Shown in pieces: positions 698 through 17,168 of a stretch of 25,170 bases of DNA. A program made the position numbers and the translations under genes. The stretch covers positions 1 to 25,170 of the forward strand of contig QXWX01000097.1 of the NCBI GenBank assembly GCA_009911175.1. The letters run 5' to 3'. The notes below the pieces were generated by a model. The model saw only the letters and a program-made list of their open reading frames with translations. It did not search any database and was not told the origin of the DNA. The DNA comes from Lachnospiraceae bacterium (GTDB lineage: Bacteria > Bacillota_A > Clostridia > Lachnospirales > Lachnospiraceae). Every line of letters starts with the position of its first letter. The stretch's first letter is position 1.

Positions 698-2893
698 ATG
701 GTGAACAGCATGGTTGTATTATTGATAGGCGGCGGCAGTGCGCTGATGGACGCGATGATCAGCAAACTGGCCAAGAACGGTCATCGTGTATACCTGCTGA
801 CAGGGCAGAAAAACAATCGTTCCTCTTATAAGAAGGTATTTGAAAAATATGATTTTCCGTATGACAGCGGGAGCATCAAGGATATTTTTGAGAGTACCAG
901 GCCGGATGTCGTTGTCTTTATGGGGGCATTTGACACGAATTTTGACTGGAAGGAAGACGCCAGACAGGAGTCGGTCCGTTATGTGGCGGGAATCGTAAAT
1001 CTCTTGTCTGCGTATAGTGTGGTCAAGGGGGGAAAGTTTGTATATTTCTCGTCCCATGAAGTATTCAGCAATGTATATATCGACAATGTTTCCGAGGACG
1101 AGCCGGTGTCTCCCAAGGGATTTAAAGCAATGGCCCTGGTTCAGGGGGAGGAAGCCTGTGAGAATTTCCGCAGGACACAGGGAACGGATACGATGATCCT
1201 CCGGTTTGACCATATGTACTGGGTGCCGGAAAAAGGAAAGACGGAGGACAATGACTGTTTTCGGATGTGTCTGGAGGCATTGAAAACAGGAAAGATTTCG
1301 GCAAATGAAAGAAGGGCATTTTCCATGATCTATATGAATGATGCTCTGGAGCTGGCTTACAGAGTGCTGTGCGAAGAGAAGCCGAAGCATTCTATGTATA
1401 ACATTTCGTCCGCAGAGACGATCAATGAAAAACAGTTTGCCGAGAAGATCAGAGATGAGATGGGGGAAGGTGTATCGGTTGCTGACAGCGCTGTAGGCGC
1501 AAACAGTCGTCTGGTGCTGGATTGCGGCAGATATAAGGAGGAGTTCGAATATGAACTGTTCCATGATTACGACAATGGAATAAAATCTGTGGTTCATTTT
1601 ATGATACGCCACAGCAATTCCTTTATTTTGGATGAGGATGAAGGTGCCGGTGTAGGCATGAAGATCTGGAACCATATCCGGAGGATCTTCAAGGCATTAT
1701 TGCCTTTTGCGGAGGCATTGGCGGTTTTTGCGCTTGCATATTTTCTGGACGGCAGGGCGGCGGACAGCGAGTTCCTGGCAAAGCTGGATATTTACCTGCT
1801 GTATGTGCTTCTGTTTGCCATTGTACACGGACAGCAGCAGGCGGTATTTTCGGCGGTACTTGCGGTGATCGGATACTGCAGCCGGGAGATGGCGGACAGC
1901 TCCTTATTTGAAGTGCTGCTGGATTACAATACATATGTCTGGATGGCGCAGCTGTTTATTGTGGGCCTGACAGTGGGATATCAGAAGGATCAGCTGAGTT
2001 TTATCCGGGATGAGGGGCGGTGCAGAGTTCAGTACCTGAACGGACAGCTGCGGGACATCGAAGATATCAATGACAGCAACGTAAAACTGAAGCATAATTT
2101 TGAATCCCAGGTAGTGAATCACCGGGAAAGTCTGGGGAAGATCTATGAGGTTTCGTCCTCACTGGAACAGTATGGACCGGAAGAGGTGCTTTTCTATGCG
2201 GCTCAGGTGCTGTCCAGGCTGATGGACTGCAGGGATGTGGCAGTATATAACGTTGCCAACCGGGATTACGCAAGGCTCTTTTCCGCAACCTCCCCGGAGG
2301 CGCGCAGATTGGGAAATTCCATCAAGTATACGGGGATGGAAGAACTGTATAACGAGCTGAAAGAACACAGGGTCTATATCAACCGGAATATGGTTGAGAA
2401 GATGCCGATGATGGCAAGTGCGGTATACTCAGAGGATGACATGCAGCTCATCATTATGCTCTGGGGCGTTCCATGGGAACGTATGACGCTGGGCGAGGCA
2501 AACCGCCTGACGATCGTAGGCTATCTGATCCAGAATGCGGTCGTCCGTGCCAACCGTTATCTGGATGTGCTTCGGAATGAGCGTTACGTGGAAGGGACCA
2601 GCGTGCTGGAGGAGGAAGCATTTACCCATCTGGCGAAAGCGTTCTTTGACGCAAAAGATAAGGGGCTGACGGAGTATATCCTGCTGGAGATCTTCACCAA
2701 CGGGTGGAACTATGCGCAGGCGGCAGACAGGCTGGGCGGCACGATGCGGCAGACAGACTATCTGGGGCTCTTCAAAGGCGGAAAACTGTATGCGCTGCTG
2801 CCGAATACCAACAAAGAAACTGTTGGCGGCATTATAGAACGTTTCCATGAATTAGGTTATACGTGCCGGATTGACGAGGAGGCAGTACTATGA
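698..2893 (+). CDS. pelD: PelD-like c-di-GMP receptor with N-terminal degenerate SDR/epimerase domain
   Basis: A 731-residue multidomain protein. Residues 5-310 resemble an extended SDR (sugar nucleotide epimerase). The Gly-rich NAD loop is altered (G11, S14, M17 in place of GxxGxxG), and the YxxxK pair reads F142 and A146, so it is probably not catalytic. Four membrane segments follow (about 333-351, 363-377, 380-393, 409-428), then a coiled coil (435-480), a GAF-like domain (487-620) and a degenerate GGDEF domain (632-731). This transmembrane-GAF-GGDEF layout is that of PelD, the c-di-GMP receptor of the Pel synthase. The GGDEF signature is KGGKL (693-697), but R684xxD687 precedes it by five residues and R715 matches the secondary inhibitory-site Arg, so binding looks preserved. 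The frame is open from 614. I chose ATG 698 because it directly precedes the Rossmann strand; 614, 677 and 710 are alternatives, and none has a strong ribosome binding site. ATGA overlap with the next gene. Confidence 0.85.
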   Translation: MVNSMVVLLIGGGSALMDAMISKLAKNGHRVYLLTGQKNNRSSYKKVFEKYDFPYDSGSIKDIFESTRPDVVVFMGAFDTNFDWKEDARQESVRYVAGIVNLLSAYSVVKGGKFVYFSSHEVFSNVYIDNVSEDEPVSPKGFKAMALVQGEEACENFRRTQGTDTMILRFDHMYWVPEKGKTEDNDCFRMCLEALKTGKISANERRAFSMIYMNDALELAYRVLCEEKPKHSMYNISSAETINEKQFAEKIRDEMGEGVSVADSAVGANSRLVLDCGRYKEEFEYELFHDYDNGIKSVVHFMIRHSNSFILDEDEGAGVGMKIWNHIRRIFKALLPFAEALAVFALAYFLDGRAADSEFLAKLDIYLLYVLLFAIVHGQQQAVFSAVLAVIGYCSREMADSSLFEVLLDYNTYVWMAQLFIVGLTVGYQKDQLSFIRDEGRCRVQYLNGQLRDIEDINDSNVKLKHNFESQVVNHRESLGKIYEVSSSLEQYGPEEVLFYAAQVLSRLMDCRDVAVYNVANRDYARLFSATSPEARRLGNSIKYTGMEELYNELKEHRVYINRNMVEKMPMMASAVYSEDDMQLIIMLWGVPWERMTLGEANRLTIVGYLIQNAVVRANRYLDVLRNERYVEGTSVLEEEAFTHLAKAFFDAKDKGLTEYILLEIFTNGWNYAQAADRLGGTMRQTDYLGLFKGGKLYALLPNTNKETVGGIIERFHELGYTCRIDEEAVL

Positions 2894-3866: not shown

Positions 3867-6161
3867 ATGTCAATGTCTATTCTTTCCATATTGCAGCTCG
3901 CAGGGATATCGGCAGCATACGTTCTTGTGGTTCTGATGCTGCCCTGGCTATTTCTGCGCAGACGGCTTGCCGGCTTCGGCAGTGTGTCCGTGAGATTTAT
4001 GATCTATTTCCTCACCGGGAATTTTTATATTATCAATCTGGTCTATCTGCTGCAGCTGCTTCACATATCCTGCTGGCTGACCCTGTTCTTTGGAACATTG
4101 GCTCCGTTTCTCGCAGAAGCTTATATAAAATACAGAGGATCTTTTCTGAGCATTCTGGAAAAAAGGCTGAACCGGCTTCTGCTGATCTTAGGCGGGGAGA
4201 TCGGCAGAAAAACACTGCTTCTTCATATCAGAAGAGGGGTGATGCGGTTCGCCGCTGCCGCAAGAAAAAAGCGCGGAGAATTTATAAAAACGTTCGGGGC
4301 GGAGATTTTTCTGGTTGTTGGCCTGATCGTGCTTTTGCTCTATATGTATGGAACGAATGCGGTCAATGTGTACGGCTACTGTGCCTCTGATATTGTGCTG
4401 CATAATTACTGGATCAATGAGATGGGACATAACAATATCTTTGCGGATGGTGTGTATCCGTTTGGTATGCACTGCCTTTTGTATCATCTGCATGGATTGT
4501 TTGGAATCCATACGCAGGTCCTGCTGAGGCTCTTTTATGTGATACAGACGGTGATGACGCACCTGGTCCTGCTGGCATTCCTCCGGAGTGTGTGTAAATC
4601 CAGATATGCTCCGTACATCGGGATTATCATCTACATTGTCTCGAACAAATTTTACTACTATACCTATATCCGATATCATGCGACTCTGCCCCAAGAGATG
4701 GGCATGGCCTTTATCCTGCCGGCCGCTTATTTTGCGATGGCTTTCTTGCAGGAGACGAATTTTGCATCCAGATTTGCGGGAAGAGGCGGGTCTGACGCGG
4801 AAGATGCCTTCGTGATGGAGACAGGGGGGGGAGCTGAGCGGGAGACGGATGGCAGAGAAACAGGGAAGGAAAAAAAGAAGGAACGGGCGCTTACCATCCC
4901 CGGATTCTATCTGGCGTTATTTGCAGTCAGTGTTTCGCTGACATTGACCGTTCATTTCTACGATACGATGATCGCGGGCCTGTTCTGCGCCGCAATCGGT
5001 GCGGGATTCTGTTTCCGCGTATTTCGCTGGAAGTACTTTAAGCGGATCGTGGCGGCAGGGATTGCCGGGATCCTGCTTGCCGTCTTGCCCATGGCGGCGG
5101 CATTTGCCACCGGTACCCCTCTGCAGGCCTCCCTGAACTGGGGAATGGCACAGATGCAGTCTTCCGCATCGGGAAGTACGCAGGCCTCCGGCGGAAGCGG
5201 CGGGAATGAGGGGCTTTCGGCACTGGAACATATTGTGGACAGGATGGATTATTTTGTGGCCTATGACATGAAGACGGCAGAGGTGATCGTGGGAAGCATC
5301 GGCATCCTTTTTCTGCTGGGAGCATTCTGGATCCTGTTCCGGAAGGTGAACTATGGGGCTGTGATCATATCCATCAGCATCTATATGGGAGCCATGGCTG
5401 TTCTGCAGGCTTCGGCACAGCTGGGACTGATCCAGATTCTGGAGGTTTCCCGTTATTCGGTTTATCTGGGATATGGGATCCCGGTTGTATGGAGTCTTTG
5501 TGTGGATGCCGTTTTGTTTATTTTGTTCCGAAAAGCAAAGGTGCTGAATTTCTGCTCTTTTGCGGCTTTGACAGCAGCCTGCGTTCTGACGGCGAAAACA
5601 GGGATGCGGGCGCCGGTATGCGTAAGTCCCTATGAGACGAATGAGGCCATGATCTGCCTCAATAATATTATACGGGAAAATAAAGACGAAGCATGGACAA
5701 TCTGCTCTGCCAATGATGAACGTCAGATGCTGGGGGACTACAAGCTGGGGTATCACTACGAGATGATCAAATTTATACGGGATATGCGCTCGTTTGATAA
5801 AGACACTACTATCACGATCCCGACCGCTACGGTTTACTTTTTTGTGGAAAAGCTCCCGCTTCTGTACCGGGATTATATCAATACAGAAAAACCGGAACGG
5901 ACCGTATCCCGGGAAGGGGCGAGAATGGCGATCTCGGAACGGCCGGGAATCCTGCCCTATATCGGAGATGACCGCTGGGTTACGATGTCACATATGTATT
6001 ATTGGGCGCAGGCATTTCAGGAGCTCTACCCAAACGAGATGGAGGTCTATTATGAGTCGGACAATTTTGTGTGCTACCGTGTGAAACAGAATGGGTACAG
6101 CCTGTATAATTTTGCGATAGATTACGGATATAACGGATATGACAAGACAAAGAAAGATTAG
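3867..6161 (+). CDS. Large polytopic membrane protein, GT-C-like, unknown role in Pel-type operon
   Basis: 764 residues with about ten or more hydrophobic helices across the first 600, then a mainly soluble C-terminal part of about 160 residues. The start has AAGGAGG (3852-3858) eight bases upstream. After the third or fourth helix an outside-facing loop contains SDIVLH (D175, H179), then a Gly, YPFG (197-200) and further His residues. A Dx3H acidic loop after an early helix recalls GT-C glycosyltransferases and related membrane polymerases, where such an Asp is catalytic. Two inserted polar loops are low in complexity: residues 295-340 (Gly/Glu/Lys-rich, encoded partly by a run of eight G) and a Ser/Gly-rich one near 430-445. 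It lies between pelE and the DUF2194 gene, a slot with no counterpart in the classical pel order that I know. It may modify or extend the polymer, anchor it, or replace missing export parts. Function not established. Confidence 0.7.
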   Translation: MSMSILSILQLAGISAAYVLVVLMLPWLFLRRRLAGFGSVSVRFMIYFLTGNFYIINLVYLLQLLHISCWLTLFFGTLAPFLAEAYIKYRGSFLSILEKRLNRLLLILGGEIGRKTLLLHIRRGVMRFAAAARKKRGEFIKTFGAEIFLVVGLIVLLLYMYGTNAVNVYGYCASDIVLHNYWINEMGHNNIFADGVYPFGMHCLLYHLHGLFGIHTQVLLRLFYVIQTVMTHLVLLAFLRSVCKSRYAPYIGIIIYIVSNKFYYYTYIRYHATLPQEMGMAFILPAAYFAMAFLQETNFASRFAGRGGSDAEDAFVMETGGGAERETDGRETGKEKKKERALTIPGFYLALFAVSVSLTLTVHFYDTMIAGLFCAAIGAGFCFRVFRWKYFKRIVAAGIAGILLAVLPMAAAFATGTPLQASLNWGMAQMQSSASGSTQASGGSGGNEGLSALEHIVDRMDYFVAYDMKTAEVIVGSIGILFLLGAFWILFRKVNYGAVIISISIYMGAMAVLQASAQLGLIQILEVSRYSVYLGYGIPVVWSLCVDAVLFILFRKAKVLNFCSFAALTAACVLTAKTGMRAPVCVSPYETNEAMICLNNIIRENKDEAWTICSANDERQMLGDYKLGYHYEMIKFIRDMRSFDKDTTITIPTATVYFFVEKLPLLYRDYINTEKPERTVSREGARMAISERPGILPYIGDDRWVTMSHMYYWAQAFQELYPNEMEVYYESDNFVCYRVKQNGYSLYNFAIDYGYNGYDKTKKD
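4824..4831 (+). repeat. G8 homopolymer tract inside the GT-C-like gene
   Basis: Eight consecutive G encode Gly320-Gly322 within a polar loop. Slippage by one or two bases here would truncate the protein after the first third, so the tract is a candidate for phase variation or a sequencing-error hotspot. The frame is intact as given. Confidence 0.6.
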
Positions 6162-6172
6162 GAGAGGGGAAT

Positions 6173-8056
6173 ATGATATCACGCCGGAATTTTTTCATAA
6201 TTACATTATTAATGTCTGTTGTATTCTTTCTGTGTATGTTTATCAATGATTTGAGGGACAGATTCAATGATTATGGTGTCAACGGCTTTGCCACCGGGAC
6301 GGCGGAGGATTATCCCTCCAAGGTCAATATCTATGTACCCGAGAGCCTGCGAGGAGACAGAAAATCCGTACTGGAGAAGACGGAAGGCGGAGAGGAGAAT
6401 GAGGAAGTCCCTGTTTCCCGCGGAAAAGCTGTCTGCATCGGCGGTAAGAACGGGATCCTGCAGGAGGTCGTGAAGGAATGGGCAATCTATACCAAGCGGA
6501 ATATTGCCGGGTATGCTTCCCTCAAATCGTATCATAAGGCGGAGAAGGATACGGCACGTCCGGAGATGCTGGTGATTGATTCCGGCGCGGTAGACTGGAA
6601 CCGGAAGAGTGAAACGGAATTTCTGATGGAGCAGGTCAGAGAGGGAACCCATCTGATTTTTGCGACCCTTCCGGAGGTATCCGTGATCCGAAGGAACAGG
6701 CAGCTTCAGGAACTCCTGGGCATCCGGAAGGTAGAGCGGACGGAGACGACGGTGGAGGGGATCCACCTGTACGATGGGTTCCTTCTCGGCGGCGAGATGG
6801 TTTATAAGGCCGAGAAAAAGAAGGACCGGAAATATCAGGATATGGAGCTTACATTCCCCTGGTTCAGTCTGACCTCCGGGACAAAGGTCTATATGAAGGG
6901 GATTCCGGAGGACGAAAAGGTAGAGACAGAGGACTATCCGGTTGTGATCTGGCGGAAGAGCTTCGGGTCGGCATATGTATTTGCCGTAAACGGCGGATAT
7001 ATGGAGGGGATTGAAGGCTTAGGGCTGCTTTCCGCCATGTCTGCGGAGATGTATCCCTATGAGATCTATCCGGTCGTAAACGCGCAGAATATTGTATTGG
7101 CCGGGTTCCCCGGTGTGGCCGATGAAAATCGGGAAGAGATGGAGAAGCTTTACGGACGCTCTGTTAAGCTATTGTGCCAGGAAAATATATGGCCTGCAGT
7201 CACTGCGGCAGTACAGGATTATTCCATGGGACTGACCTGTCTGATGTCTCCTCAGTATGACTATTCGGATGACAGGCTTCCGGATCCAAAGCAGCTTACG
7301 TATTATATGAAGATCTTTCATGAAAAATCTGCGGAGATTGGTCTCTCGGGGCTGAACGTGTCGAATACGCCTGTGAAGGAGAAGCTTGCAGAGGATCAGA
7401 AATTCCTGAAGGAAGCGGCGGAGAGATTCCGGTTTGCATCCTTTTACGCGGGGGATATGGGAGAGAAGGAAACTCTGGAGGCTCTTCAGGAGGATATCCT
7501 TTCCTCCGTGAGGACTGTGGTTCGGGACTATGATGAGAAAGACATCAGCCTCCTGGGATACCTTACAGAGCATATCACGGAGCAGCGCGCGGTCATCAAC
7601 GGGCCGGAGTATTCTTTCCTGCGGGATTTTCGAACCCGATGCGTGGAAACGGCGCTGGGGTATCTCAGTGTGTGCTGTGATATGGAGCGTATCGCATATC
7701 CCAGAGGGGACGAGGATTCGTGGGATGAGCTTTCCGTTGAATTTGTAAAAAATGTGGAAGCCTATGGGCGGAACCTGGAAGGTTTTTCCGGCACGACAGC
7801 AGCGGAATGCGATGAGAGGATCCGAAGCTTCCTGGCTCTGGATTATACGGAGAGCCGGAAAGGGGATACGATCCGTCTGCAGGTCAGCGGAACAGACGGA
7901 GCAGCATGGTTTATTTTCAGAAATTACGGCAATGACATAAAGGAAGTAGAAGGCGGAGGTTTTCAGGAGCTGGAAGAGGGCGTATATCTGATCGAAGCAA
8001 AGAGCAGCGAGATTTCGATCGTTCTTGAGCCGGCGGATGAGAGATTTTATTACTGA
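6173..8056 (+). CDS. DUF2194-type protein in the PelA-deacetylase position
   Basis: 627 residues, start 11 bases after the previous stop with AGGAG at 6160-6164. One N-terminal membrane anchor (about 6-25) places the rest outside the cell. Residues about 88-300 form an alternating hydrophobic/polar domain like the flavodoxin/GATase-like part of DUF2194 proteins. Residues 300-500 are the expected barrel-like deacetylase region, with an Asp-rich DYSDD stretch following the MSP motif. The tail (500-627) looks beta-rich, like a carbohydrate-binding sandwich. In Bacillus cereus the equivalent gene (pelA-DA, in pelDEA-DA-FG) supplies Pel deacetylation. I find only five His residues and no HxxxH motif of the usual metal-dependent deacetylase type, so activity is doubtful. 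Family call is moderate; function is inferred from position. Confidence 0.65.
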   Translation: MISRRNFFIITLLMSVVFFLCMFINDLRDRFNDYGVNGFATGTAEDYPSKVNIYVPESLRGDRKSVLEKTEGGEENEEVPVSRGKAVCIGGKNGILQEVVKEWAIYTKRNIAGYASLKSYHKAEKDTARPEMLVIDSGAVDWNRKSETEFLMEQVREGTHLIFATLPEVSVIRRNRQLQELLGIRKVERTETTVEGIHLYDGFLLGGEMVYKAEKKKDRKYQDMELTFPWFSLTSGTKVYMKGIPEDEKVETEDYPVVIWRKSFGSAYVFAVNGGYMEGIEGLGLLSAMSAEMYPYEIYPVVNAQNIVLAGFPGVADENREEMEKLYGRSVKLLCQENIWPAVTAAVQDYSMGLTCLMSPQYDYSDDRLPDPKQLTYYMKIFHEKSAEIGLSGLNVSNTPVKEKLAEDQKFLKEAAERFRFASFYAGDMGEKETLEALQEDILSSVRTVVRDYDEKDISLLGYLTEHITEQRAVINGPEYSFLRDFRTRCVETALGYLSVCCDMERIAYPRGDEDSWDELSVEFVKNVEAYGRNLEGFSGTTAAECDERIRSFLALDYTESRKGDTIRLQVSGTDGAAWFIFRNYGNDIKEVEGGGFQELEEGVYLIEAKSSEISIVLEPADERFYY

Positions 8057-8077: not shown

Positions 8078-9508
8078 GTGAGAGTCTGCATCGTTGTAGA
8101 AGGATGTTATCCATATGTGACAGGCGGCGTATCCAGTTGGGTGCACGGCTTGATCCAGTCTTTTCCGAAGCTGGAGTTTGTGATACTGGCAATTATCAGC
8201 AACCATTCCATGAGCGGAAAATTTACATATCAGATTCCGGAAAATGTGACAGAGGTACATGAACTATATCTGGAGGATGCTGACTGGAACCGGAAGGGCA
8301 GAAAAAAATTAAAGCTGAACAAATCCGAGTACCAGGCCTTCCGCAGCCTGGTGCATAACCGGCGTGTGGAGTGGGAATCGGTATTCCGGCTGTTTCAGGA
8401 AAAGCCGGTTTCTCTGGATAAGCTGCTGATGGGGGAAGACTTCCTGCAGATCGTAAGGGAATATTATGACCTGCATTACAGTCAGCTCGTTTTTTCAGAT
8501 TTTTTGTGGACGGTACGCTCCGTGTATCTGCCGCTGCTGTTTACCTTGAAGATGGAGCTTCCGAAGGCGGATCTGTACCATTGCGTGGCCACCGGATATG
8601 CCGGTGTACTGGGCAGTATGGCGAAGGTGCTTTATAACAGCCGGCTGCTGATCTCGGAGCATGGGATCTATACCAGAGAGCGGGAGGAGGAACTGCTGCG
8701 GGCGGAATGGGTGCAGGGGGTATACAAGAATATATGGATCGACCAATTTAAGAAGATGTCGAAGCTGGCATATGAGAAGGCTGACCTGGTGACCAGCCTG
8801 TATGAATATGCCAGGGAGCTCCAGGTAGATCTTGGCTGCCCTGTGGAAAAAACGATGGTCACGCCCAACGGGGTTTCTGTAGAAAGGCTGAAAGATCTTC
8901 CCGGCAGGACGGAAGAGGACAAGGGAAAGATCAATATCGGCGCCGTGCTTCGTGTGACGCCGATCAAGGATGTGAAAACAATGATCCAGGCATTCAGCTT
9001 TGCCAAGGAGCGGGAACCGAGACTGAAGCTGTGGATCATGGGGCCCATGGATGAGGACGAAGGGTATGCAAGGGAATGTCTGGAGCAGGTGGAGGCGCTG
9101 GGGATTGAGGATGTGGTCTTCACCGGAAGGATTGATATCCGGGATTATCTGGGCAGGATGGATATGACGATCCTGACCAGCCTCAGTGAAGGGCAGCCTC
9201 TTACCATTCTGGAGGGATATGCCGCGCATAAGCCGGCCATTGCCACGGATGTAGGGAACTGCCGGGGACTCATTTACGGCGAGAGCGATGACTTTGGGGA
9301 TGCGGGAATCGTGACCCATATCATGAACGTGGAGGAGATCGCGCAGGCGATGGTAGATCTGGCGAGGAACGAACCGCTGCGCCGTCAGATGGGCGAAAAT
9401 GGTTACCAGAGGGTGATATCGGGCTACCAGATCGAGCATATGCGCAGAAATTACCGGAAGATCTACAAGGACTTTTCAGACAGCCTGGGGCTTCCATGGG
9501 AAGAATAG
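8078..9508 (+). CDS. pelF: PelF-like GT4 glycosyltransferase
   Basis: A 476-residue soluble GT-B enzyme starting at GTG 8078, with AAAGGAG (8064-8070) seven bases upstream. It has the PelF hallmarks: EGCYPYVTGGVSSWVH at residues 8-23 (acceptor-side Gly loop), SEHGIYTRERE (193-203), TPNGV (262-266), TPIKDVKT (294-301) and the retaining-GT4 EX7E pair E371 and E379 in SEGQPLTILEG. In Pel systems this cytosolic enzyme uses UDP-sugar (UDP-GlcNAc/GalNAc in Pseudomonas) to polymerise the chain at the PelD-PelE-PelG complex. Length is close to the proteobacterial protein (about 500). It is followed directly by pelG, the most constant pair of pel operons. Confidence 0.92.
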   Translation: MRVCIVVEGCYPYVTGGVSSWVHGLIQSFPKLEFVILAIISNHSMSGKFTYQIPENVTEVHELYLEDADWNRKGRKKLKLNKSEYQAFRSLVHNRRVEWESVFRLFQEKPVSLDKLLMGEDFLQIVREYYDLHYSQLVFSDFLWTVRSVYLPLLFTLKMELPKADLYHCVATGYAGVLGSMAKVLYNSRLLISEHGIYTREREEELLRAEWVQGVYKNIWIDQFKKMSKLAYEKADLVTSLYEYARELQVDLGCPVEKTMVTPNGVSVERLKDLPGRTEEDKGKINIGAVLRVTPIKDVKTMIQAFSFAKEREPRLKLWIMGPMDEDEGYARECLEQVEALGIEDVVFTGRIDIRDYLGRMDMTILTSLSEGQPLTILEGYAAHKPAIATDVGNCRGLIYGESDDFGDAGIVTHIMNVEEIAQAMVDLARNEPLRRQMGENGYQRVISGYQIEHMRRNYRKIYKDFSDSLGLPWEE

Positions 9509-9529: not shown

Positions 9530-10993
9530 ATGGACGGCATAGGAGAGAAACTGAGTAAGATATTTGAAAAAAATTCGATCACAACCTATCTGATCGGGTT
9601 TGCCTACAGCTCTATGTCAACGGTGACTCCAATGTTCGTGATCATTATGAATATTCTGCTGATGGGGTACTTCCTGGAGTTCAGCAGTCTGGGGCTGATC
9701 GAGCGGGAATTATTTTCCTGTACGGTACTGTATATATTTATTTTTGCGCTTTTGACCTGCGCGCCGTTTAATTCAGTTCTGTCCAAGTATATGTCTGATG
9801 TGATCTATGAGGAACGCTATCAGGATATCAGGCCCTGCTATTACCTGGGACTCCTGATGAATCTTACCCTCAGCAGTCTGTTGGGCATTCCGTTCTGCCT
9901 GTGGGAGCATTTTGTCGGCAGGGTGGATGTATTCTATGTATTTACAGGTTACTGCGGCTACATTGCGCTGGTTCTGGTTTTTTACTCCATGATCTACCTT
10001 TCCATCGCAAAGGCCTATGAGAAGATTTCGCTGTTTTATACACTTGGGATGGTCTGGGCATTTTTCCTGTCTCTGTTTCTGAGATTTGTTTTAAAGTGGG
10101 GCATCAGGGAAAGTATGTTGTTCGCCCTGACCACAGGGTTTTTCCTGATCGCTTTTCTGGAGATTGCGGTTGTGAAGCGTTATTTTCTGGAGAACAGCAA
10201 TCGGTATAGTTCCGTGCTGAGGTATTTCAGAAAGTACTGGCAGCTGGTGATTGCCAACTTCTGTTATATCCTGGGATTGTATGTCCATAATTTTGTATTC
10301 TGGACTACGGATATGAAGCTGGTGCTTGTCAGAACCTTCGTCTGCAACCAGCCCTATGATATGGCCACATGCCTGGCGATGTTTACCAATATATCCGCTA
10401 CCATCATTTTTATCACCCGTGTGGAGATGTTCTTTCATGAGAAGTATAAGAACTATTCCGAATCGGTCATCGGAGGGCGCGGAAGAGACATTGACATTGC
10501 CAAGAAGGAAATGTTCCGCCAGCTGTCCTCGGAGCTGATGAGCCTGGTACGCATCCAGTTTATCATTACATCCGTGGTATATCTGCTGTGCGTGGTATTC
10601 CTGCCGAGATTTGGATTTTCTGATCTGACGCTCAGGATCTACCCCTGTCTGGTGGTGGGATACTTTATCGTGTTTTTGATGTATTCTGAGATTATCTTTT
10701 TGTATTATTACAATGACCTGACCGGTGCTGCGCTTACGTCATTCACCTTCTGTCTGGTCACGTTTCTGGGAAGTATCCTGGCAACGAGGATGCCGGAACT
10801 GTGGTATGGGATCGGCGTGGTAATGGGAGCTTTTTCCGGATGGACGGTGGCGTATTTCCGCCTGCGTTATATTGAGAGGCATCTGGATGCCCATATATTC
10901 TGCGTGGGTTCGCTGTTAAAGCCCGGAATGGGGACGCGGCCGCCCAGGAAGGTATACGATAAAAATGTACAAACGAGAAGTGAGGAGGCTTAG
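9530..10993 (+). CDS. pelG: PelG-like polysaccharide transporter
   Basis: 487 residues with about twelve hydrophobic helices spread over the whole length, the layout of PelG in the MOP/MATE-like flippase superfamily. The first helix carries TPMFVIIMNILLMG (33-46), and a conserved Tyr-rich stretch follows. A strong AGGAGG (9515-9520) lies nine bases upstream of ATG 9530. PelG is the inner-membrane conduit for the polymer made by PelF and interacts with PelD and PelE. The C-terminal tail (about 455-487) is short, basic and cytoplasmic. Order pelF-pelG and spacing of 21 bases support the assignment. Confidence 0.9.
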   Translation: MDGIGEKLSKIFEKNSITTYLIGFAYSSMSTVTPMFVIIMNILLMGYFLEFSSLGLIERELFSCTVLYIFIFALLTCAPFNSVLSKYMSDVIYEERYQDIRPCYYLGLLMNLTLSSLLGIPFCLWEHFVGRVDVFYVFTGYCGYIALVLVFYSMIYLSIAKAYEKISLFYTLGMVWAFFLSLFLRFVLKWGIRESMLFALTTGFFLIAFLEIAVVKRYFLENSNRYSSVLRYFRKYWQLVIANFCYILGLYVHNFVFWTTDMKLVLVRTFVCNQPYDMATCLAMFTNISATIIFITRVEMFFHEKYKNYSESVIGGRGRDIDIAKKEMFRQLSSELMSLVRIQFIITSVVYLLCVVFLPRFGFSDLTLRIYPCLVVGYFIVFLMYSEIIFLYYYNDLTGAALTSFTFCLVTFLGSILATRMPELWYGIGVVMGAFSGWTVAYFRLRYIERHLDAHIFCVGSLLKPGMGTRPPRKVYDKNVQTRSEEA

Positions 10994-10995
10994 AC

Positions 10996-11406
10996 ATGGA
11001 TGCCAATATGATAAGGATCGGAATTGGGCTTGTAGGAATTCTGCTCATGGCAGCCAGCTTTTTGATGCATTCCTATAAAAAGATTACAGTGAACTATACT
11101 GTGATCTGGGTATTGCTGGGAATTGTGCTGTTTCTGATTGGGATTGTTCCGGTATTCTCGGAATGGACGAGATATCTCGCGACAGGGACGGGGCTGGCAT
11201 TTTTCTGCGTGGGAGCCATATTTTTGTTTGAAGAATTCCGGACAAGCGCGATGATCTCCCAATTGATCCTCAGGGAGCGTGAAATGGCCATGCATGTGGC
11301 TTTGCTTAACCAGGAAAACGAGGCGATTCTGAAAGAGCTTGACAGGCTGAGCAGGCTGGTGGGAGAGGACCATGAAGACAAGGAAGAATACAGTGAAGAA
11401 AAGTAA
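10996..11406 (+). CDS. DUF2304-type small membrane protein
   Basis: 136 residues: three membrane helices (about 5-25, 32-52 and 60-80), then a charged helical tail with heptad-like Leu spacing (about 85-120) and an acidic end. This matches DUF2304 proteins, which commonly sit beside GT2/GT4 glycosyltransferases in Gram-positive surface glycan loci and may hold them at the membrane. GAGGAGG (10982-10988) gives a strong start two bases after the pelG stop. The 3' end overlaps the next gene by 35 bases, so translation is coupled. Precise function is unknown. Confidence 0.75.
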   Translation: MDANMIRIGIGLVGILLMAASFLMHSYKKITVNYTVIWVLLGIVLFLIGIVPVFSEWTRYLATGTGLAFFCVGAIFLFEEFRTSAMISQLILREREMAMHVALLNQENEAILKELDRLSRLVGEDHEDKEEYSEEK

Positions 11407-12616
11407 AATTCTGTTCGTTGTGAATACGTTGGGACGGGCAGGCGCGGAGACAGCCCTCCTGGAGTTGCTGAGACACTTGGACAGCCCGGAGTATGAGATC
11501 TCTCTTTATGTGATCATGGGACAGGGCGTGATGATCAATGAACTGCCGTCTCATGTAAGACTCATGAATACCAGGTTCAGCAATCAGTCCGTACTGACGA
11601 AAAAGGGAAAGCGGATCATGATGCGGACCGTATGTACTTCCTTTCTTCGGAACGGAGGATGGTTTCGGAAGCTGCGCTTTATTATGAAGAATTATACGTC
11701 CATGAGTAGAACCGGGCATGTTCAGCCGGATAAGCTGCTGTGGCGGATGATTTCCGATGGTTCTCCGCATTTTTCCGAGAGGTTTGATATGGCTGTCGCA
11801 TATCTGGAAGGGGCTTCTGCCTACTATGTAGCGGAGCATGTGAAGGCTGACCGAAAATGTGCGTTTGTACATATTGACTACGAGAGCGCAGGATATACCA
11901 GGGAGATGGATCAGGGCTGCTGGGAGCGGTTTGATCGGATCTTTACGGTTTCCGATGAGGTGAGATCCCATTTCCTGGTGGTATACCCTGAATGTTCCTC
12001 AAAGACAGAGATCTTCCATAACTTGATTGACCAGGAAGGAATCCGGAAACGGGCGGAGGAAGAGGGCGGCTTTCAGGATACGTACCAGGGGATGCGGCTT
12101 CTGACTGTAGGGAGGCTGACATATCAGAAGGCGTATGATATCACGGTGGAGGCGATGAAGCTTTTGAAGGACGCAGGTCTCAGGGCAAGGTGGTATGTGC
12201 TGGGGGAAGGAGACCAGAGGAGTATGCTGGAGAAAAAGATCGCCTCCCTGGGGCTGAAAGAGGATTTTGTGCTTCTTGGAGCCGTAGCCAATCCGTATCC
12301 CTACTATGCGCAGGCAGACCTGTACATCCATGCCACCAGATTTGAAGGGAAAAGTATTGCCATTCAGGAGGCGCAGACGTTGGGCCGCGCGGTGATCGCT
12401 TCGGACTGCAACGGCAACAGGGAGCAGATTATAGACGGAGAGGACGGCATACTCTGCGAATTGACCCCGCAGGCGATCGCGGACAGTATTGCAGACCTTC
12501 TAAAGGATCACGAAAAGAGAAAACGGCTCGGACAGGCGGCCGCAAAGAAAACAACAGCTCAGAAAGAAGAGATCGAAAAGCTGCTCAGAGTCTTGCCAGG
12601 GGGACAAAGATCATGA
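11372..12616 (+). CDS. GT4 family glycosyltransferase
   Basis: A 414-residue GT-B enzyme. The N-terminal domain begins with FVVNTLGRAGAETAL (15-29), the typical acceptor Gly loop. The C-terminal donor domain has VGRLTYQK (246-253), GEGDQR (278-283) and the EX7E pair E325 and E333 in FEGKSIAIQEA, followed by the usual ASDCNGNREQI. ATG 11372 has a GGGAGAGG sequence just upstream; GTG 11393, with AAGGAAG before it, is an alternative start. It overlaps the DUF2304 gene and ends in an ATGA overlap with the DPM1-like GT2. Likely transfers a sugar to a lipid-linked or polymeric acceptor at the inner face of the membrane; donor and acceptor cannot be read from the sequence. Confidence 0.85.
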   Translation: MKTRKNTVKKSKILFVVNTLGRAGAETALLELLRHLDSPEYEISLYVIMGQGVMINELPSHVRLMNTRFSNQSVLTKKGKRIMMRTVCTSFLRNGGWFRKLRFIMKNYTSMSRTGHVQPDKLLWRMISDGSPHFSERFDMAVAYLEGASAYYVAEHVKADRKCAFVHIDYESAGYTREMDQGCWERFDRIFTVSDEVRSHFLVVYPECSSKTEIFHNLIDQEGIRKRAEEEGGFQDTYQGMRLLTVGRLTYQKAYDITVEAMKLLKDAGLRARWYVLGEGDQRSMLEKKIASLGLKEDFVLLGAVANPYPYYAQADLYIHATRFEGKSIAIQEAQTLGRAVIASDCNGNREQIIDGEDGILCELTPQAIADSIADLLKDHEKRKRLGQAAAKKTTAQKEEIEKLLRVLPGGQRS

Positions 12617-13392
12617 AGAATAAAGAACTATTGATCATCATACCGTCTTATAATGAAGGGAATAATATCCGGAGACTGCTTATGCAGCTGGAAGCGTTGG
12701 AAATGAAGGATATCGCGGATATCCTGATCGTAAATGACGCCTCCACAGATTCCACAAACTGGATCGTAAAGGAAATGCAGTATCCCATGCTCTCCCAACT
12801 TTACAATATGGGGTATGGCTGCGCTCTGCAGACGGGCTATAAATACGCGGTGCGCAGGGGATATCAATATGTGATCCAGATGGATGGGGACGGTCAGCAT
12901 GATGTGTGCAATATTCCGGTGATCTACCGGAAGCTGAAGGAAGCAGACGTGGTCGGACGATGCCCGGATATCGTGCTTGGAGCAAGGTTTATGAAGGAGA
13001 GCTCTGACTTTCCGGTCTCCCTGCCGAAACGGATCGTCTATACGATGTTCCGTTTTCTGATTCGAATGATCACGGGAAATCAAATCGCGGATCCGACCAC
13101 CGGATTGCAGGGATTAAGCAGAAAAGCATTTTTGTATTATTCGAAATATGATCACTTTGACGATAAATATCCGGACGCAAATATGATCATCCTGATGATT
13201 CTGACCAAGTTCCGGGTTGTGGAGATCCCGGCGGTGATGCATGCGAGGACCGAAGGAAAGAGCATGCATTCCGGGCTGAAGCCATTCTGGTATATGCTCA
13301 GAGTCATGTTCAGCATCCTGATCGTAGTATTCCGGGTAAAGGTGCTTAAGATGGATGCGGAGGTGGGACTTCTGAGCTCGGATAAGATCTGA
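12613..13392 (+). CDS. DPM1/GtrB-like GT2 glycosyltransferase
   Basis: 259 residues, single GT-A domain. IIIPSYNEG (8-16), VNDASTDST (40-48) and DGDGQHD (91-97) are the nucleotide-sugar and metal motifs of the dolichol/polyprenyl-phosphate sugar synthase branch. DPTTGLQGLSR follows at 160-170, also typical. One hydrophobic stretch near the C-terminus (about 228-245) may bind the membrane; there is no full GtrB pair of helices. ATGA overlap with the previous gene makes it translationally coupled. Together with DUF2304 this could make a polyprenyl-phosphate sugar for decoration outside the cell by the GT-C-like protein of the same operon. That is an inference. Confidence 0.85.
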   Translation: MKNKELLIIIPSYNEGNNIRRLLMQLEALEMKDIADILIVNDASTDSTNWIVKEMQYPMLSQLYNMGYGCALQTGYKYAVRRGYQYVIQMDGDGQHDVCNIPVIYRKLKEADVVGRCPDIVLGARFMKESSDFPVSLPKRIVYTMFRFLIRMITGNQIADPTTGLQGLSRKAFLYYSKYDHFDDKYPDANMIILMILTKFRVVEIPAVMHARTEGKSMHSGLKPFWYMLRVMFSILIVVFRVKVLKMDAEVGLLSSDKI

Positions 13393-13449: not shown

Positions 13450-14880
13450 CTACTTGGGGAATATGGTAATATCCAGATGTCCGAGTGTATGTCCGTTGCT
13501 GGTAACGATGCCTCCATTGGCAAGATAAATCGGACTGCCGGAAATCGGGTCACTGATCTTGAGAGCGATATCATAGGAGCCTGTGGCATATTCGCGGAAA
13601 TGGACAGGAAACGTAAGGGTGACCTGTTCCCCGGGAGCCCAGAAGCGGGTATCTGTTTGGACAGGGAGGGTAAAGGTCCTGTTCGTGGCCGCTTCCGTCA
13701 GAATCAGGGATACGTCAAAGGGGCGGTAGCAGTTGGAAAAACCGATATTCTCTAAAGTGACGGTCAGCTCCGCGGTCTTTTCCCAGGGGAGAGCCTGCGC
13801 GCATTCGGAGGAACGAAGAACATACCGGTATCCTAGATGCCTGGAAATATAGTCAAAACCGTTCATGCCGTGATACGGTGAAGCTTCCGTACAGAGCGCG
13901 GCCCGCCATTTGGAAAAAACGGCTTCGTCATAGGCGCTGTTGAGGTAGGAAACGCGTGCAGCCGAAAGATCCGTCACAGCAGCGGGAAAATCATTGTAGG
14001 GATTGGGCACCACGACTTCCCCTCCGTTGGGGACATAGGCGCATAAACGGTTTTGGAACGCAAGTTCATCCTGTCGGCTTCTTTTCTGATTGTATGAGAA
14101 TTCACCGAAGTCGGAGTCGGGAGCATAGGTGCTCAGGTCCGTATCCGAGCCAAGCATGCCGTCATTGAACAGGCTGAGTCTGGATGCCAGTGATCCGTTA
14201 AAGGCCGCGGATCTGTCAATCGGTTCCTCAGAGTCCGCAAGAAGCCGCCACTGCTGGGGCGTGCGGACAGCCAGGAAGATCTCGGGATCCGTGACGGAGG
14301 CCAGGTGGCTTGTCAGAGTGATCATATCCTCATTGTTTGCATAGCGGGAGCCGTGCATCTCTCCCCAGGGACCGATGAAGATGCCCTGCAGGAGATAGAC
14401 ACAATCGGAATAACGATTTACGGCTTCTGATGTCTGCGATATATGTGTCAGGATCAGGGACAGATCCCGGGGCTCCGCTTCCAGCGCGTTTCCGTCCCAG
14501 TCGTAGAAAAAGCGGAGGATCAGCTGTCTGCCCGTGGACTGCCAGCTTTCCAGAACCTGATCGAGAAGGGAGAGACCGTAATCGCTGATGGGGCGGTCCG
14601 CATAGTTTTGCAGATTAAATTCCAGCAGCGCAAGGCCGGCCCGGTGTTCCTGATCAAGAATTTCGGACAGATCATAGGACGCAGTGTCAGAAAGCATGTA
14701 ATTATGGATCTGATACCAGCCAATGTATGGGTTTTGAAGCTCTTCCGTAGATTCCGCACAGGTGTCAGGAGTGTAATTGACAAAACGCAGTGTCAGGAAT
14801 AAGAGGAATATTCCGGCGATCAGGCAGATGCAGATTGTGGAAGAAACAGCGATCAGAAGTTTTTTTAATTTCATGGTCAT
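13450..14880 (-). CDS. Membrane-anchored DUF4874/DUF4832 domain protein
   Basis: 476 residues on the minus strand. One N-terminal signal anchor (about 8-30) puts the rest outside. Residues 40-330 have the DUF4874 look: NPYIGWYQIHNY (50-61), LLEFNLQNY (85-93), RFFYDWDG (123-130) and GPWGEMHGSRY (170-180) with E174. This is a TIM-barrel-like series of strands ending in acidic and aromatic residues, reminiscent of glycoside hydrolases. The C-terminal part is beta-rich (DUF4832), suggestive of carbohydrate binding. The start has AGGAA just upstream; the second ATG, six bases in, is also possible. It is alone on its strand between two glycan modules and has its own extended -10 promoter. A polysaccharide hydrolase or lyase role is an inference; no catalytic activity is known to me for the family. 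Confidence 0.75.
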   Translation of the reverse strand: MTMKLKKLLIAVSSTICICLIAGIFLLFLTLRFVNYTPDTCAESTEELQNPYIGWYQIHNYMLSDTASYDLSEILDQEHRAGLALLEFNLQNYADRPISDYGLSLLDQVLESWQSTGRQLILRFFYDWDGNALEAEPRDLSLILTHISQTSEAVNRYSDCVYLLQGIFIGPWGEMHGSRYANNEDMITLTSHLASVTDPEIFLAVRTPQQWRLLADSEEPIDRSAAFNGSLASRLSLFNDGMLGSDTDLSTYAPDSDFGEFSYNQKRSRQDELAFQNRLCAYVPNGGEVVVPNPYNDFPAAVTDLSAARVSYLNSAYDEAVFSKWRAALCTEASPYHGMNGFDYISRHLGYRYVLRSSECAQALPWEKTAELTVTLENIGFSNCYRPFDVSLILTEAATNRTFTLPVQTDTRFWAPGEQVTLTFPVHFREYATGSYDIALKISDPISGSPIYLANGGIVTSNGHTLGHLDITIFPK

Positions 14881-14930: not shown

Positions 14931-14949
14931 CCTTTTGGAGAGAAAAGCT

Positions 14950-17157
14950 ATGATGAAAAAAGTATCGGTTATCATTCCGATGTATAATTCGGAAAAATAT
15001 ATCAGACAGTGTCTGGATTCCGTACTCAGGCAGACATTCCGGGATATGGAGATCATCGTGATCGACGACGGTTCCACGGATCGGGGGCCAAAGATCTGTG
15101 AAGAGCTGGGGCGGACGGACGACAGGATCCGGCTGCGCCGCCGGGAGAACGGAGGCGTTTCTGCGGCAAGAAATTATGGGATTGAGACAGCGGGGGGAGA
15201 ATATCTTTTTTTCCTGGACAGTGACGACGTGATCCATCCGCTCCTGATAGAGAACATGGTCCGGCAGGCAAAAGAGCGGCAGGCGGATCTGGTGTTCTGC
15301 GGTTACAGGAAGCTGGAGGCGCGGAAACTGGATGCGGTATTGGATACGGCATGGCCGGCGGAGGTGCCAGAGACGGCATGGGAGGCAGAGACATTGGCGG
15401 CAGACTGGAAGAAAGATATACGTGTCCGGTTTGAGACGGCAGAGGGAAAAGACGCGGAGAATTGGTTCCATATCCAATATGTGAATCAGCTGTCAGGGAT
15501 CGGTGGGAAGCTGCTGCGAAGATCTGCCATCGGAGATCTTCGGTTTGACAGGCGCCTGACAAATGGAGAGGACACCCTGTTTTTGTACTACTTTATCCGA
15601 AATCAGATCCGGACTGCCTATCTGCGGAAGGACTGGTACTATTACAGGATCCATCCGGAGAGTGTGACACAGTCTTCAGCGACGCGAAGGGGAAAGCGAT
15701 ATTTTGAAAGCAGCAGAAGGATCCGTGACGAAGAATACAAAAGAGGGAATACGGATTTTGCGCTGACCTGGGAACGGTTTGGTATCGGGCAGATCGAGAA
15801 AAACTATGAGATGCTGAAAAATGCAGGGGATCAAAAGGGCTGCAGAAGCTTGAGAGAGCTTGCGGCCAAAGAGAGAAGGCATCCCATGTTCCAGCAGCTT
15901 GCCCTAAGTGAAAAGCTGCTGTATGACCTGTGCTTCTTTTGCCATTCCATCTTTGTCCCGGTCAACCGCCAGGTGCCCGGGCTGCTGAAATGGAAGGAGG
16001 CATTTACGATGGGAAAAAGGCATTCGGATATTGGGATCATTACGTTCCATTGTTCCAATAATTATGGCGCGATGCTGCAGGCTTATGGTTTGAAAACCTT
16101 TCTGCGCAGAAATGGGAAACAGACGGATATCGTCCGTTATGAGCCATTTTATATGACCGGCAGGCATTGGTGGATCCCTTATACGCCGATCAAGGGACTG
16201 AAAGGACGGATATGGGGAATGTTCAATATGTGGAATGAGTTCAGGATCCATCTGCAGTCAAAGGAGGACTTTTCCAGGCGGCTGAGTAATATGAACTATT
16301 TCAGATATAAGTACCTGGTAGATAAAAAGCAGAGAAAGGTCTTATCCTTAGCAGGCCTGAAAAGGCTGAAATATCCATATTATGTGGTGGGAAGCGACCA
16401 GATCTGGAATCCGGATATTACCTGCGGGCTTCGCAAAGCATATTTCGGCGCTTTTGATAATAAATGGAAGAAGAAAGTCATTTCCTATGCGGCCAGCTTT
16501 GGCGGGGCGGAGCTTGCACGGCGTCATGACAAGGAATTTGCGAAACTGGTCCGCCATCTGGATGCCGTATCTGTCCGGGAGGAAGCTGCAGTCCCGTATG
16601 TGGAAAGGCTTTATGGAAAAGAAGTGACAGCCGTTCTGGATCCGGTATTCTTCCTGAAAAAGGAGTCCTGGCAAAAGGTGGAAAGGATTCCGGACAGAGT
16701 GAAGGACAGAAGCTACATTCTGGTTTATGTTACGGAGCCGAATCAGGCAATGTCGGATTATGCGAAGAAGCTCTCCCAAGAAACAGAGCTTCTCGTTATC
16801 GAGGTGCGTGCCGGACAGCTGGGGACCAATGCGGGCTTTGAAGTGGACCACACGGTAGGGCCTGCGGAATTTTTAGGGTATATCCACAAGGCAGAGTATG
16901 TGGTATCCAATTCCTTCCACGCGGTGGCGTTCAGTATGATCTATGAGAAGCGGTTTATTGCGTTTGTACACAGCCGTCTGGGAGCCAGGGTGAGGAATAT
17001 TATCGACATTCACGGACTGCGGGACAGGCTGTGTGAAGAGAAACCGGTGATCGATATCCATGATGAGATAGACTGGGAGAATGTAAGAAAGAGGACGAAG
17101 GAAAGCGTGAGGGCATCCGGTGAGTTCCTGCTGAAACACTTGGAAACCGGAGAATAA
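14950..17157 (+). CDS. GT2 glycosyltransferase fused to polysaccharide pyruvyl transferase
   Basis: 735 residues. Residues 5-340 are a GT2 GT-A glycosyltransferase: VSVIIPMYNSEKY (5-17), DDGSTD (39-44) and DSDD (90-93). From residue 354 the protein is a complete polysaccharide pyruvyl transferase-like domain: DIGIITFHCSNNYGAMLQAY, VVGSDQIWNP, ISYAASFGG, SVREE and VSNSFHAVAF, the usual order. The frame opens at a TTG (14935), but GGAG at 14937-14940 lies nine bases before ATG 14950, so I start there. At the join, AAGGAGG (15994-16000) and ATG 16009 look like a normal gene start, giving a possible 382-residue stand-alone transferase. The enzyme would add a sugar and a pyruvate ketal to a surface glycan. 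It is followed 11 bases later by the Fe-S gene. A fused pair is unusual; a frame error is possible but not needed. Confidence 0.85.
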   Translation: MMKKVSVIIPMYNSEKYIRQCLDSVLRQTFRDMEIIVIDDGSTDRGPKICEELGRTDDRIRLRRRENGGVSAARNYGIETAGGEYLFFLDSDDVIHPLLIENMVRQAKERQADLVFCGYRKLEARKLDAVLDTAWPAEVPETAWEAETLAADWKKDIRVRFETAEGKDAENWFHIQYVNQLSGIGGKLLRRSAIGDLRFDRRLTNGEDTLFLYYFIRNQIRTAYLRKDWYYYRIHPESVTQSSATRRGKRYFESSRRIRDEEYKRGNTDFALTWERFGIGQIEKNYEMLKNAGDQKGCRSLRELAAKERRHPMFQQLALSEKLLYDLCFFCHSIFVPVNRQVPGLLKWKEAFTMGKRHSDIGIITFHCSNNYGAMLQAYGLKTFLRRNGKQTDIVRYEPFYMTGRHWWIPYTPIKGLKGRIWGMFNMWNEFRIHLQSKEDFSRRLSNMNYFRYKYLVDKKQRKVLSLAGLKRLKYPYYVVGSDQIWNPDITCGLRKAYFGAFDNKWKKKVISYAASFGGAELARRHDKEFAKLVRHLDAVSVREEAAVPYVERLYGKEVTAVLDPVFFLKKESWQKVERIPDRVKDRSYILVYVTEPNQAMSDYAKKLSQETELLVIEVRAGQLGTNAGFEVDHTVGPAEFLGYIHKAEYVVSNSFHAVAFSMIYEKRFIAFVHSRLGARVRNIIDIHGLRDRLCEEKPVIDIHDEIDWENVRKRTKESVRASGEFLLKHLETGE
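15994..16011 (+). promoter_or_regulatory. Internal ribosome binding site and start codon at the fusion junction
   Basis: AAGGAGG (15994-16000), eight bases of spacer and ATG (16009-16011) lie in frame inside the fusion gene, exactly where the pyruvyl transferase domain begins (MGKRHSDIGI). The spacing equals that of ordinary starts elsewhere in the window, such as 3867. Internal initiation would yield a free pyruvyl transferase next to the full fusion. Confidence 0.6.
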
Positions 17158-17168
17158 AAGGTGCGGAT

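Follow-up and report, generated by a model that had tools for sequence, protein, structure and literature searches.

The pelD-like gene considered here lies in a 25,170-nucleotide stretch of Lachnospiraceae DNA (contig QXWX01000097.1 of assembly GCA_009911175.1; hereafter the window) and, judged by its sequence, encodes a receptor with an intact predicted cyclic di-GMP (c-di-GMP) I-site motif. Its N-terminal short-chain dehydrogenase/reductase (SDR) domain is a pseudoenzyme, retained and constrained. The explanation that we consider best overall, and to which we give an even chance, combines descent of this domain from an epimerase, loss of catalysis, use as a docking or assembly module and a change in the polymer made by the cluster. 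A little short of even, we suggest that in gut Lachnospiraceae both enzymes concerned with N-acetylgalactosamine (GalNAc), the epimerase-like domain and the Pel deacetylase, may now be structural pseudoenzymes, with polymerase, exporter and c-di-GMP switch intact and the Pel machinery retooled for a different polysaccharide.

The window domain has the fold of an extended SDR of the sugar-nucleotide epimerase type. Its fusion to the N-terminus of the PelD-like receptor, proposed in a preliminary description of this DNA, is confirmed, as is the retention of the YFSSHEVF strand, in which S118 and S119 preserve a catalytic Ser/Thr ahead of the catalytic helix. The catalytic Tyr and Lys are lost: the pair can be placed in three registers on the former catalytic helix (FKAMALVQGEEACENFRRTQ), K140/A144, F142/A146 and K143/L147, none of which yields Tyr and Lys. 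The preliminary description was right about this loss, but its residue numbers, F142 and A146, are probably one off, since K143/L147 is favoured by gapless profile alignments against both intact homologs and solved SDRs and by the helix starts in models of the window protein (142) and of an intact homolog (139). Comparing full-length profiles gave K140/A144, with a gap; the intact side of that comparison, 44 rows, included 4 window-type proteins. The replacement is conserved within the window's clade: across 84 aligned rows, window included, position 143 is K (62) or R (22) and position 147 is always L, V, I, F or M, and in a second alignment of 174 rows (the window protein, 53 open reading frames from the loci and 120 database proteins) F occupies position 142 in 144 rows, K or R position 143 in every row and A position 146 in 163. 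A YxxxK does occur elsewhere in the window domain (Y106-K110, at the end of the preceding helix), but it is present in just 8 of the 84 rows and therefore looks like a chance match; YTSEK stands near the helix in two rows (L045 and L046), outside all three registers. The Gly-rich loop is likewise lost and no GxxGxxG remains, although profile alignment favours G12, A15 and D18 as the three Gly sites over the G11, S14 and M17 first read there. Many residues at least 90% conserved among intact fused homologs are also altered in the window (D31 to T35, H71 to F74, N92 to Y95, N169 to H172, R207 to F208 and D208 to S209), and we take these to line the nicotinamide adenine dinucleotide (NAD) and sugar sites.

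The receptor part has been kept. R684 and D687 of its RxxD motif are invariant across the 84 rows, and the motif is present in 75 of 76 PelDs with a dead SDR, 42 of 44 with an intact one, all five that have lost the Tyr and all 34 without an SDR, the three misses being alignment gaps. Residues 665-721 match a diguanylate cyclase chain (3ign) at an E value of 0.0016 in a profile search, and a GAF match was found, below the cut-off, in the intact homolog P0122 from Paenibacillus andongensis (E 3e-4). The Pfam PelD GGDEF model gave no match to the window protein at E 0.1; HMMER likewise misses this domain in Bacillus cereus PelD, according to Whitfield et al. (2020, PMC7112168). The reading frame in the window is free of stops.

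Homologs with intact catalytic residues, which the preliminary description named as evidence that would refute it, do exist in the wider family, and none was seen in the window's clade. Paenibacillus and other Bacillales often carry an intact fused SDR, and the intact database proteins include some named Paenibacillus, Brevibacillus, Cohnella and Psychrobacillus; two proteins named Bacillus (P0207 and P0260) are intact and a third (P0316) is not. In Exiguobacterium-type proteins GGG remains and both Tyr and Lys are gone. Among the 218 matches listed in two protein searches, 195 have GGG with the Tyr/Lys pair, 20 have GGG without it and three have the pair with a gap in the loop. For comparison at the level of loci, PelG (PF16933) was found over the cut-off in 13 of 398, 26 of 149, 19 of 150, 45 of 348 and 13 of 341 genomes in five partly overlapping draws and in 1 of 43 in a sixth. 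We took 107 PelG places with flanking DNA, which with set A and the window gave 160 loci; set A (L001-L052) was chosen by likeness to the window and set B by PelG in the drawn genomes, so that locus frequencies are not population estimates. L088 (G223, on a short contig), the G268 fragments, the G284 match, the second G747 match, the G975 match and sub-cut-off matches were left unused. PelD was found in 158 of the 160 loci (L206 and L268 lack it). Of 159 PelDs classed, 34 are short and 125 are long, with an N-terminal region that is intact in 43, has a Gly loop without the Tyr/Lys pair in six (five set B rows and L034, which lies inside the window's clade), lacks both in 75 and is truncated in one; 'intact' here means Gly loop and Tyr/Lys by alignment column and includes L275, which has an odd motif.

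Catalytic death of the fused SDR looks recurrent. On a PelG tree of 112 rows (147 before removal of near-copies) SDR presence changes once, which fits a single SDR-PelD fusion event, and the intact or inactive state changes six times. On a tree of the PelD core without the SDR (249 of 310 rows, after removal of near-copies and, by hand, of L264, L269, L274 and L275) the Tyr/Lys state changes 13 times, 11 of these changes being forced by starred branches. These parsimony counts carry no direction. Both trees come from quick searches in which long branches were flagged, several of the Tyr-lost rows each consist of one metagenome sequence, and support for L266 as a neighbour of the window's clade is weak (88 and 48). 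The intact state is probably ancestral, given its spread across lineages and the logic of an enzyme as starting point. The dead state persists throughout the window's clade.

The dead domain is under purifying selection, with some relaxation. Ratios of nonsynonymous to synonymous substitution (dN/dS) in the SDR of window-clade pairs with dS below 1 are 0.064 (L007/L009), 0.112 (L038/L039), 0.060 (L035/L049) and 0.075 (L047/L048), and 14 SDR columns are invariant in the 84 rows, D79, W84 and S209 among them. Positions common to 34 intact and 39 window-clade rows are L9, G12, K26, A77, N101, L103, F114, S118, S119, V122, E133, G150, E151, C154, R169, Y174, D215, S237 and L274. C154 is near-fixed in intact and window-clade fused domains (97% and 100% of rows), present in 17 of 20 Tyr-lost proteins and found in none of 18 free SDRs, at least 16 of which have also replaced G150, with N101 present in four and K26 in three. 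The retention of C154, and less cleanly of N101 and G150, in both intact and window-clade fused SDRs suggests that something besides catalysis is preserved there. Three Exiguobacterium-type rows retain K26, N101, G150 and C154, and L203 retains K26, G150 and C154; among the 20 Tyr-lost proteins C154 is lost in three and G150 in more.

The preliminary description held that the dead enzyme could act either as a sensor of uridine diphosphate (UDP)-sugars or as a docking site, and a pseudo-SDR that binds a nucleotide or sugar nucleotide without turnover could gate PelD together with c-di-GMP. We consider such a sensor unlikely. At the former NAD-site positions conservation exceeds that of randomly drawn domain positions (17 of 5000 random sets were as high), the clade has near-fixed new residues (T35, E121, K/R143 and D171) beside the invariant D79, W84 and S209, and GGG is kept in all 20 Exiguobacterium and other Tyr-lost proteins, where NAD could still bind. 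The former sugar-site positions, however, are only weakly enriched (290 of 5000), both sets of positions were mapped from GalE contacts, and conservation is no higher in loops on the active-site face of the sheet than in those opposite (2.52 bits over 66 positions vs 2.46 over 25, permutation p 0.41). With the NAD-site excess vanishing in this loop control, pocket conservation was rejected. At position 18, the third Gly site, 72 of the 84 rows have D or N, and the equivalent of D31, which presumably holds the adenosine ribose, is T in the clade. Sensing of UDP-sugars through the old pocket, most of whose cofactor- and sugar-site residues are lost, thus lacks support; what stands of the proposal is a dead domain on a receptor with an intact RxxD, and docking or assembly appears to fit better than a UDP-sugar sensor.

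The cluster's deacetylase has died too. B. cereus PelADA uses D262/D263, HxxxH, R458 and H488, and its activity is required for Pel production (PMC13254593). These catalytic columns are conserved in 69 to 72 of 73 DUF2194 proteins from clusters with an intact SDR or none. The window DUF2194 protein, which can be aligned with PelADA-type proteins from other pel clusters and occupies the same place in the operon, reads A, G, S, V, E and D at the six columns and has no HxxxH anywhere: DDFP is replaced by AGFP, GLHGYNHQ by GLSGLN with a deletion and HFVHPDD by VCCDMER, with Trp, Asn and Pro positions elsewhere retained. If a deacetylase is scored as active-looking when at least five of the six residues are kept, 39 of 43 loci with an intact SDR, all 30 without an SDR and two of five with a Tyr-lost SDR have one. 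The window's clade has none in 50, all of which keep at most two of the six (12 of the 159 PelDs have no paired PelG, hence 50 of 55 window-clade PelDs in this count). SDR and deacetylase are also both dead in the Exiguobacterium lineage, independently of the window's clade. In L253 and L255 the SDR is intact and the deacetylase dead, and in L266 an intact SDR accompanies three of the six residues, which hints that deacetylase loss can precede SDR loss. The coupling of the two deaths is suggestive. The co-loss in the window's clade and Exiguobacterium points to a change of product as an idea rather than a result, since it amounts to two events; the cluster may make a polymer other than ordinary Pel.

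Free SDR genes bear on the role of the fused domain. Of the 34 loci that lack a fused SDR, 13 have a free SDR gene nearby, vs 2 of the 44 whose fused SDR is intact (Fisher p 0.0003), which is consistent with the intact fused domain being the epimerase of its cluster. Near an inactive fused SDR free genes are rare: they occur at 2 of 27 set B loci and at none of the 54 from set A and the window, some contigs being short. A free galE beside pelD as a rule for dead domains was therefore rejected, and the upstream gene of L217, the sole one of its kind checked as a candidate, encodes DNA polymerase III delta. The same counts tell against pairing of the dead domain with a free, active SDR resembling GalE, which it would anchor to the synthase, an arrangement that we regard as quite improbable. 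Further SDRs of this type occur in all 10 genomes searched, eight of them with a dead or Tyr-lost fused domain, but GalE-type SDRs are common in genomes anyway, and helices alphaE and alphaF, presumably the usual SDR dimer helices, are not specially conserved. In L214 (3435-4469) and L250 (6184-7152) an intact free SDR does lie 28 and 35 bases upstream of pelD; the function may have been handed over to it, the fused Tyr/Lys pair being lost in L214 and kept in L250.

The account that we prefer begins with a sugar-nucleotide epimerase that would have become fused to the N-terminus of the PelD receptor. In Bacillales the fused domain still looks active and probably feeds PelF, and the active forms would be epimerases of UDP-N-acetylglucosamine (UDP-GlcNAc) and UDP-GalNAc. 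Lachnospiraceae and their relatives, the lineage of the window, lost the catalytic pair together with most residues of the cofactor and sugar sites but retained the fold under purifying selection. The pseudo-SDR would now serve, without catalysis, as a docking or assembly module: from the cytoplasmic face of the receptor it would keep PelF, PelE or a second PelD in place within a c-di-GMP-gated synthase. With the deacetylase dead and an extra membrane protein often present, the polymer may no longer need the two GalNAc-related steps.

Several observations weigh against this account. None of the analyses here shows docking, a partner or an interface; conservation in alphaE and alphaF does not exceed that of the remaining domain (1007 of 5000 random sets were as high), and dimer-face conservation was rejected for want of this enrichment. 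The class drawn around G032, which we take for Negativicutes, has 14 dead rows, and these do not retain N101, G150 or C154; three of the 10 Exiguobacterium-type proteins (P0249-P0251) have lost both G150 and C154. By helix geometry these two residues are reckoned to lie on the same helix face as the lost Tyr and Lys, so that they may serve core packing. As to the polymer, a change cannot be read from a dead SDR, since outside the window's clade an active-looking deacetylase persists in 17 of the 19 loci whose SDR is classed as dead; the other two, L272 and L274, are placed beside the window's clade by the PelG tree. The link between the two deaths rests on two deacetylase changes on the tree, with which an independent-pairs test cannot reach significance. 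The dN of the SDR relative to the receptor core has a median of 1.45 in 21 dead pairs vs 1.08 in 11 intact pairs (a twelfth, near-identical, yielded no ratio), and two Exiguobacterium-type pairs have an SDR to receptor-core rate ratio of about 2.3. In Streptococcus thermophilus JIM8232 the SDR region is missing and pel-dependent biofilm still forms (PMC7112168). This mild relaxation and the missing domain would suit a decaying relic without function, heading for deletion, yet dN/dS well below 1, the 14 invariant columns, the open frame and the dead state kept across the whole clade make a relic very improbable. Least of all do we credit a domain that is still an enzyme through K/R143, E121, D171 and S119, which are nearly fixed in the clade, because the Gly loop and other NAD-site residues were lost together and the deacetylase in the same cluster is dead too.

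The series from intact through Tyr-lost with a Gly loop to fully dead offers a natural comparison of catalysis, cofactor binding and mere presence of the domain, and the dead deacetylase is a caution against annotating gut Lachnospiraceae clusters as producers of cationic Pel.

Table 1. Features of the pelD-like gene and its cluster, in window coordinates.
Feature	Position	Strand	Basis or remark
pelD-like gene, 731 amino acids: pseudo-SDR, membrane helices, GAF-like, degenerate GGDEF-like	698..2893	+	
Pseudo-SDR domain, residues 5-310	710..1627	+	
Former Gly-rich cofactor loop GGGSALMD, residues 11-18	728..751	+	profile alignment against intact homologs
YFSSHEVF strand, residues 116-123, Ser pair S118/S119 retained	1043..1066	+	
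Former catalytic helix, residues 142-161, without Tyr and Lys	1121..1180	+	
Putative transmembrane helical region, residues 336-440	1703..2017	+	helices in model; membrane location presumed
Putative GAF-like region, residues 491-630	2168..2587	+	model secondary structure and GAF match in homolog
Degenerate GGDEF-like region, residues 636-728	2603..2881	+	
RQTD, c-di-GMP I-site motif RxxD, residues 684-687	2747..2758	+	
pelE-like gene, 324 amino acids	2890..3864	+	cluster position only; family search without match
764-residue protein, apparently multi-pass membrane	3867..6161	+	read from sequence; family search without match
DUF2194 protein, PelADA homolog without catalytic residues (pseudo-deacetylase)	6173..8056	+	PF09960, E 8e-24
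pelF, glycosyltransferase	8078..9508	+	NCBIfam PelF, E 4e-114, over cut-off
pelG, exporter	9530..10993	+	PF16933, E 2e-141
DUF2304 protein	10996..11406	+	
Glycosyltransferase, Glycos_transf_1	11372..12616	+	
Glycosyltransferase, Glycos_transf_2	12613..13392	+	

The genes in Table 1 form a pelDE-A-FG cluster, PelF and PelG being recognised by family models with DUF2194 between, and pelE by position only; the PelF EX7E pattern is present in all 49 window-clade rows found. In 29 of the 50 window-clade clusters a homolog of the 764-residue protein lies in the interval from pelD to pelG, as it does in 1 of 97 others, and the protein is perhaps, as a guess, a membrane glycosyltransferase that decorates the polymer. 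Downstream in the window are a DUF4832/DUF4874 gene (13450-14880, minus strand), DUF4832 being listed as a pel accessory in streptococci and clostridia (PMC7112168), and, at 14935-18293, a fusion of GT2 with a polysaccharide pyruvyl transferase, next to which comes an FrhB-type iron-sulfur protein. Elsewhere, PelG is fused to a CotH-kinase domain in L188 (3052-6159, minus strand; PF08757, E 5e-55), the locus covered by a domain scan among 19 paired PelG frames of more than 900 residues. Genomes G001, G002 and G003 (L053-L059) have two, three and two PelG genes, and L032 has two PelD genes on opposite strands. The PelDs of L050 and L051 (857 and 879 residues) are longer than their relatives, with long N-terminal regions. 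A protein of 1525-1527 residues lies near the SDR-less clusters L260, L261 and L262, with kinase, AAA and GGDEF domains in the L260 copy.

Use of the SDR fold without catalysis has a parallel, as a lead, in the regulatory SDR-fold proteins MAT2B and NmrA. UDP-glucose 4-epimerase TM0509 (4zrm/4zrn), described as an epimerase in its entry, is free-standing, and the UDP-GlcNAc C4-epimerase of Pseudomonas protegens (6wjb/6wj9), which we take to be PelX, is a separate protein, both unlike the fused window domain. The one library of open papers that was searched yielded no literature on Lachnospiraceae or Exiguobacterium with PelD and PelG and none describing PelD as a 'pseudoenzyme'. A dead SDR on PelD is nevertheless of an already known kind, and the finding of the preliminary description is a rediscovery: Whitfield et al. 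(2020, PMC7112168) reported that the SDR of extended PelD proteins is degenerate in clostridia, streptococci and actinobacteria and intact in Brevibacillus, and suggested that the degenerate forms are inactive. The window PelD shares with these degenerate forms the fusion, the loss of cofactor and catalytic residues and the operon type. The same paper places Roseburia pel loci inside larger capsule- or teichoic-acid-like clusters, leaves open whether they work and allows for a polymer unrelated to Pel. The class IV PelD of Streptococcus intermedius has a degenerate N-terminal SDR of function stated as unknown, and this species may make mainly GalNAc, little-deacetylated Pel (mBio 2025, PMC12345266), so that a dead SDR can accompany a GalNAc polymer; its PelD lacks the GGDEF, whereas the window PelD keeps a GGDEF-like region with RxxD. 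Unlike B. cereus PelADA, the window DUF2194 protein has lost the equivalents of the MT1 Asp pair, HxxxH, the Arg and the MT5 His named in PMC13254593. What the present analysis adds to PMC7112168 is the survey of intact, Tyr-lost and dead forms, the recurrent loss on the trees, the selection on the dead domain and the loss of PelADA residues in the same clusters.
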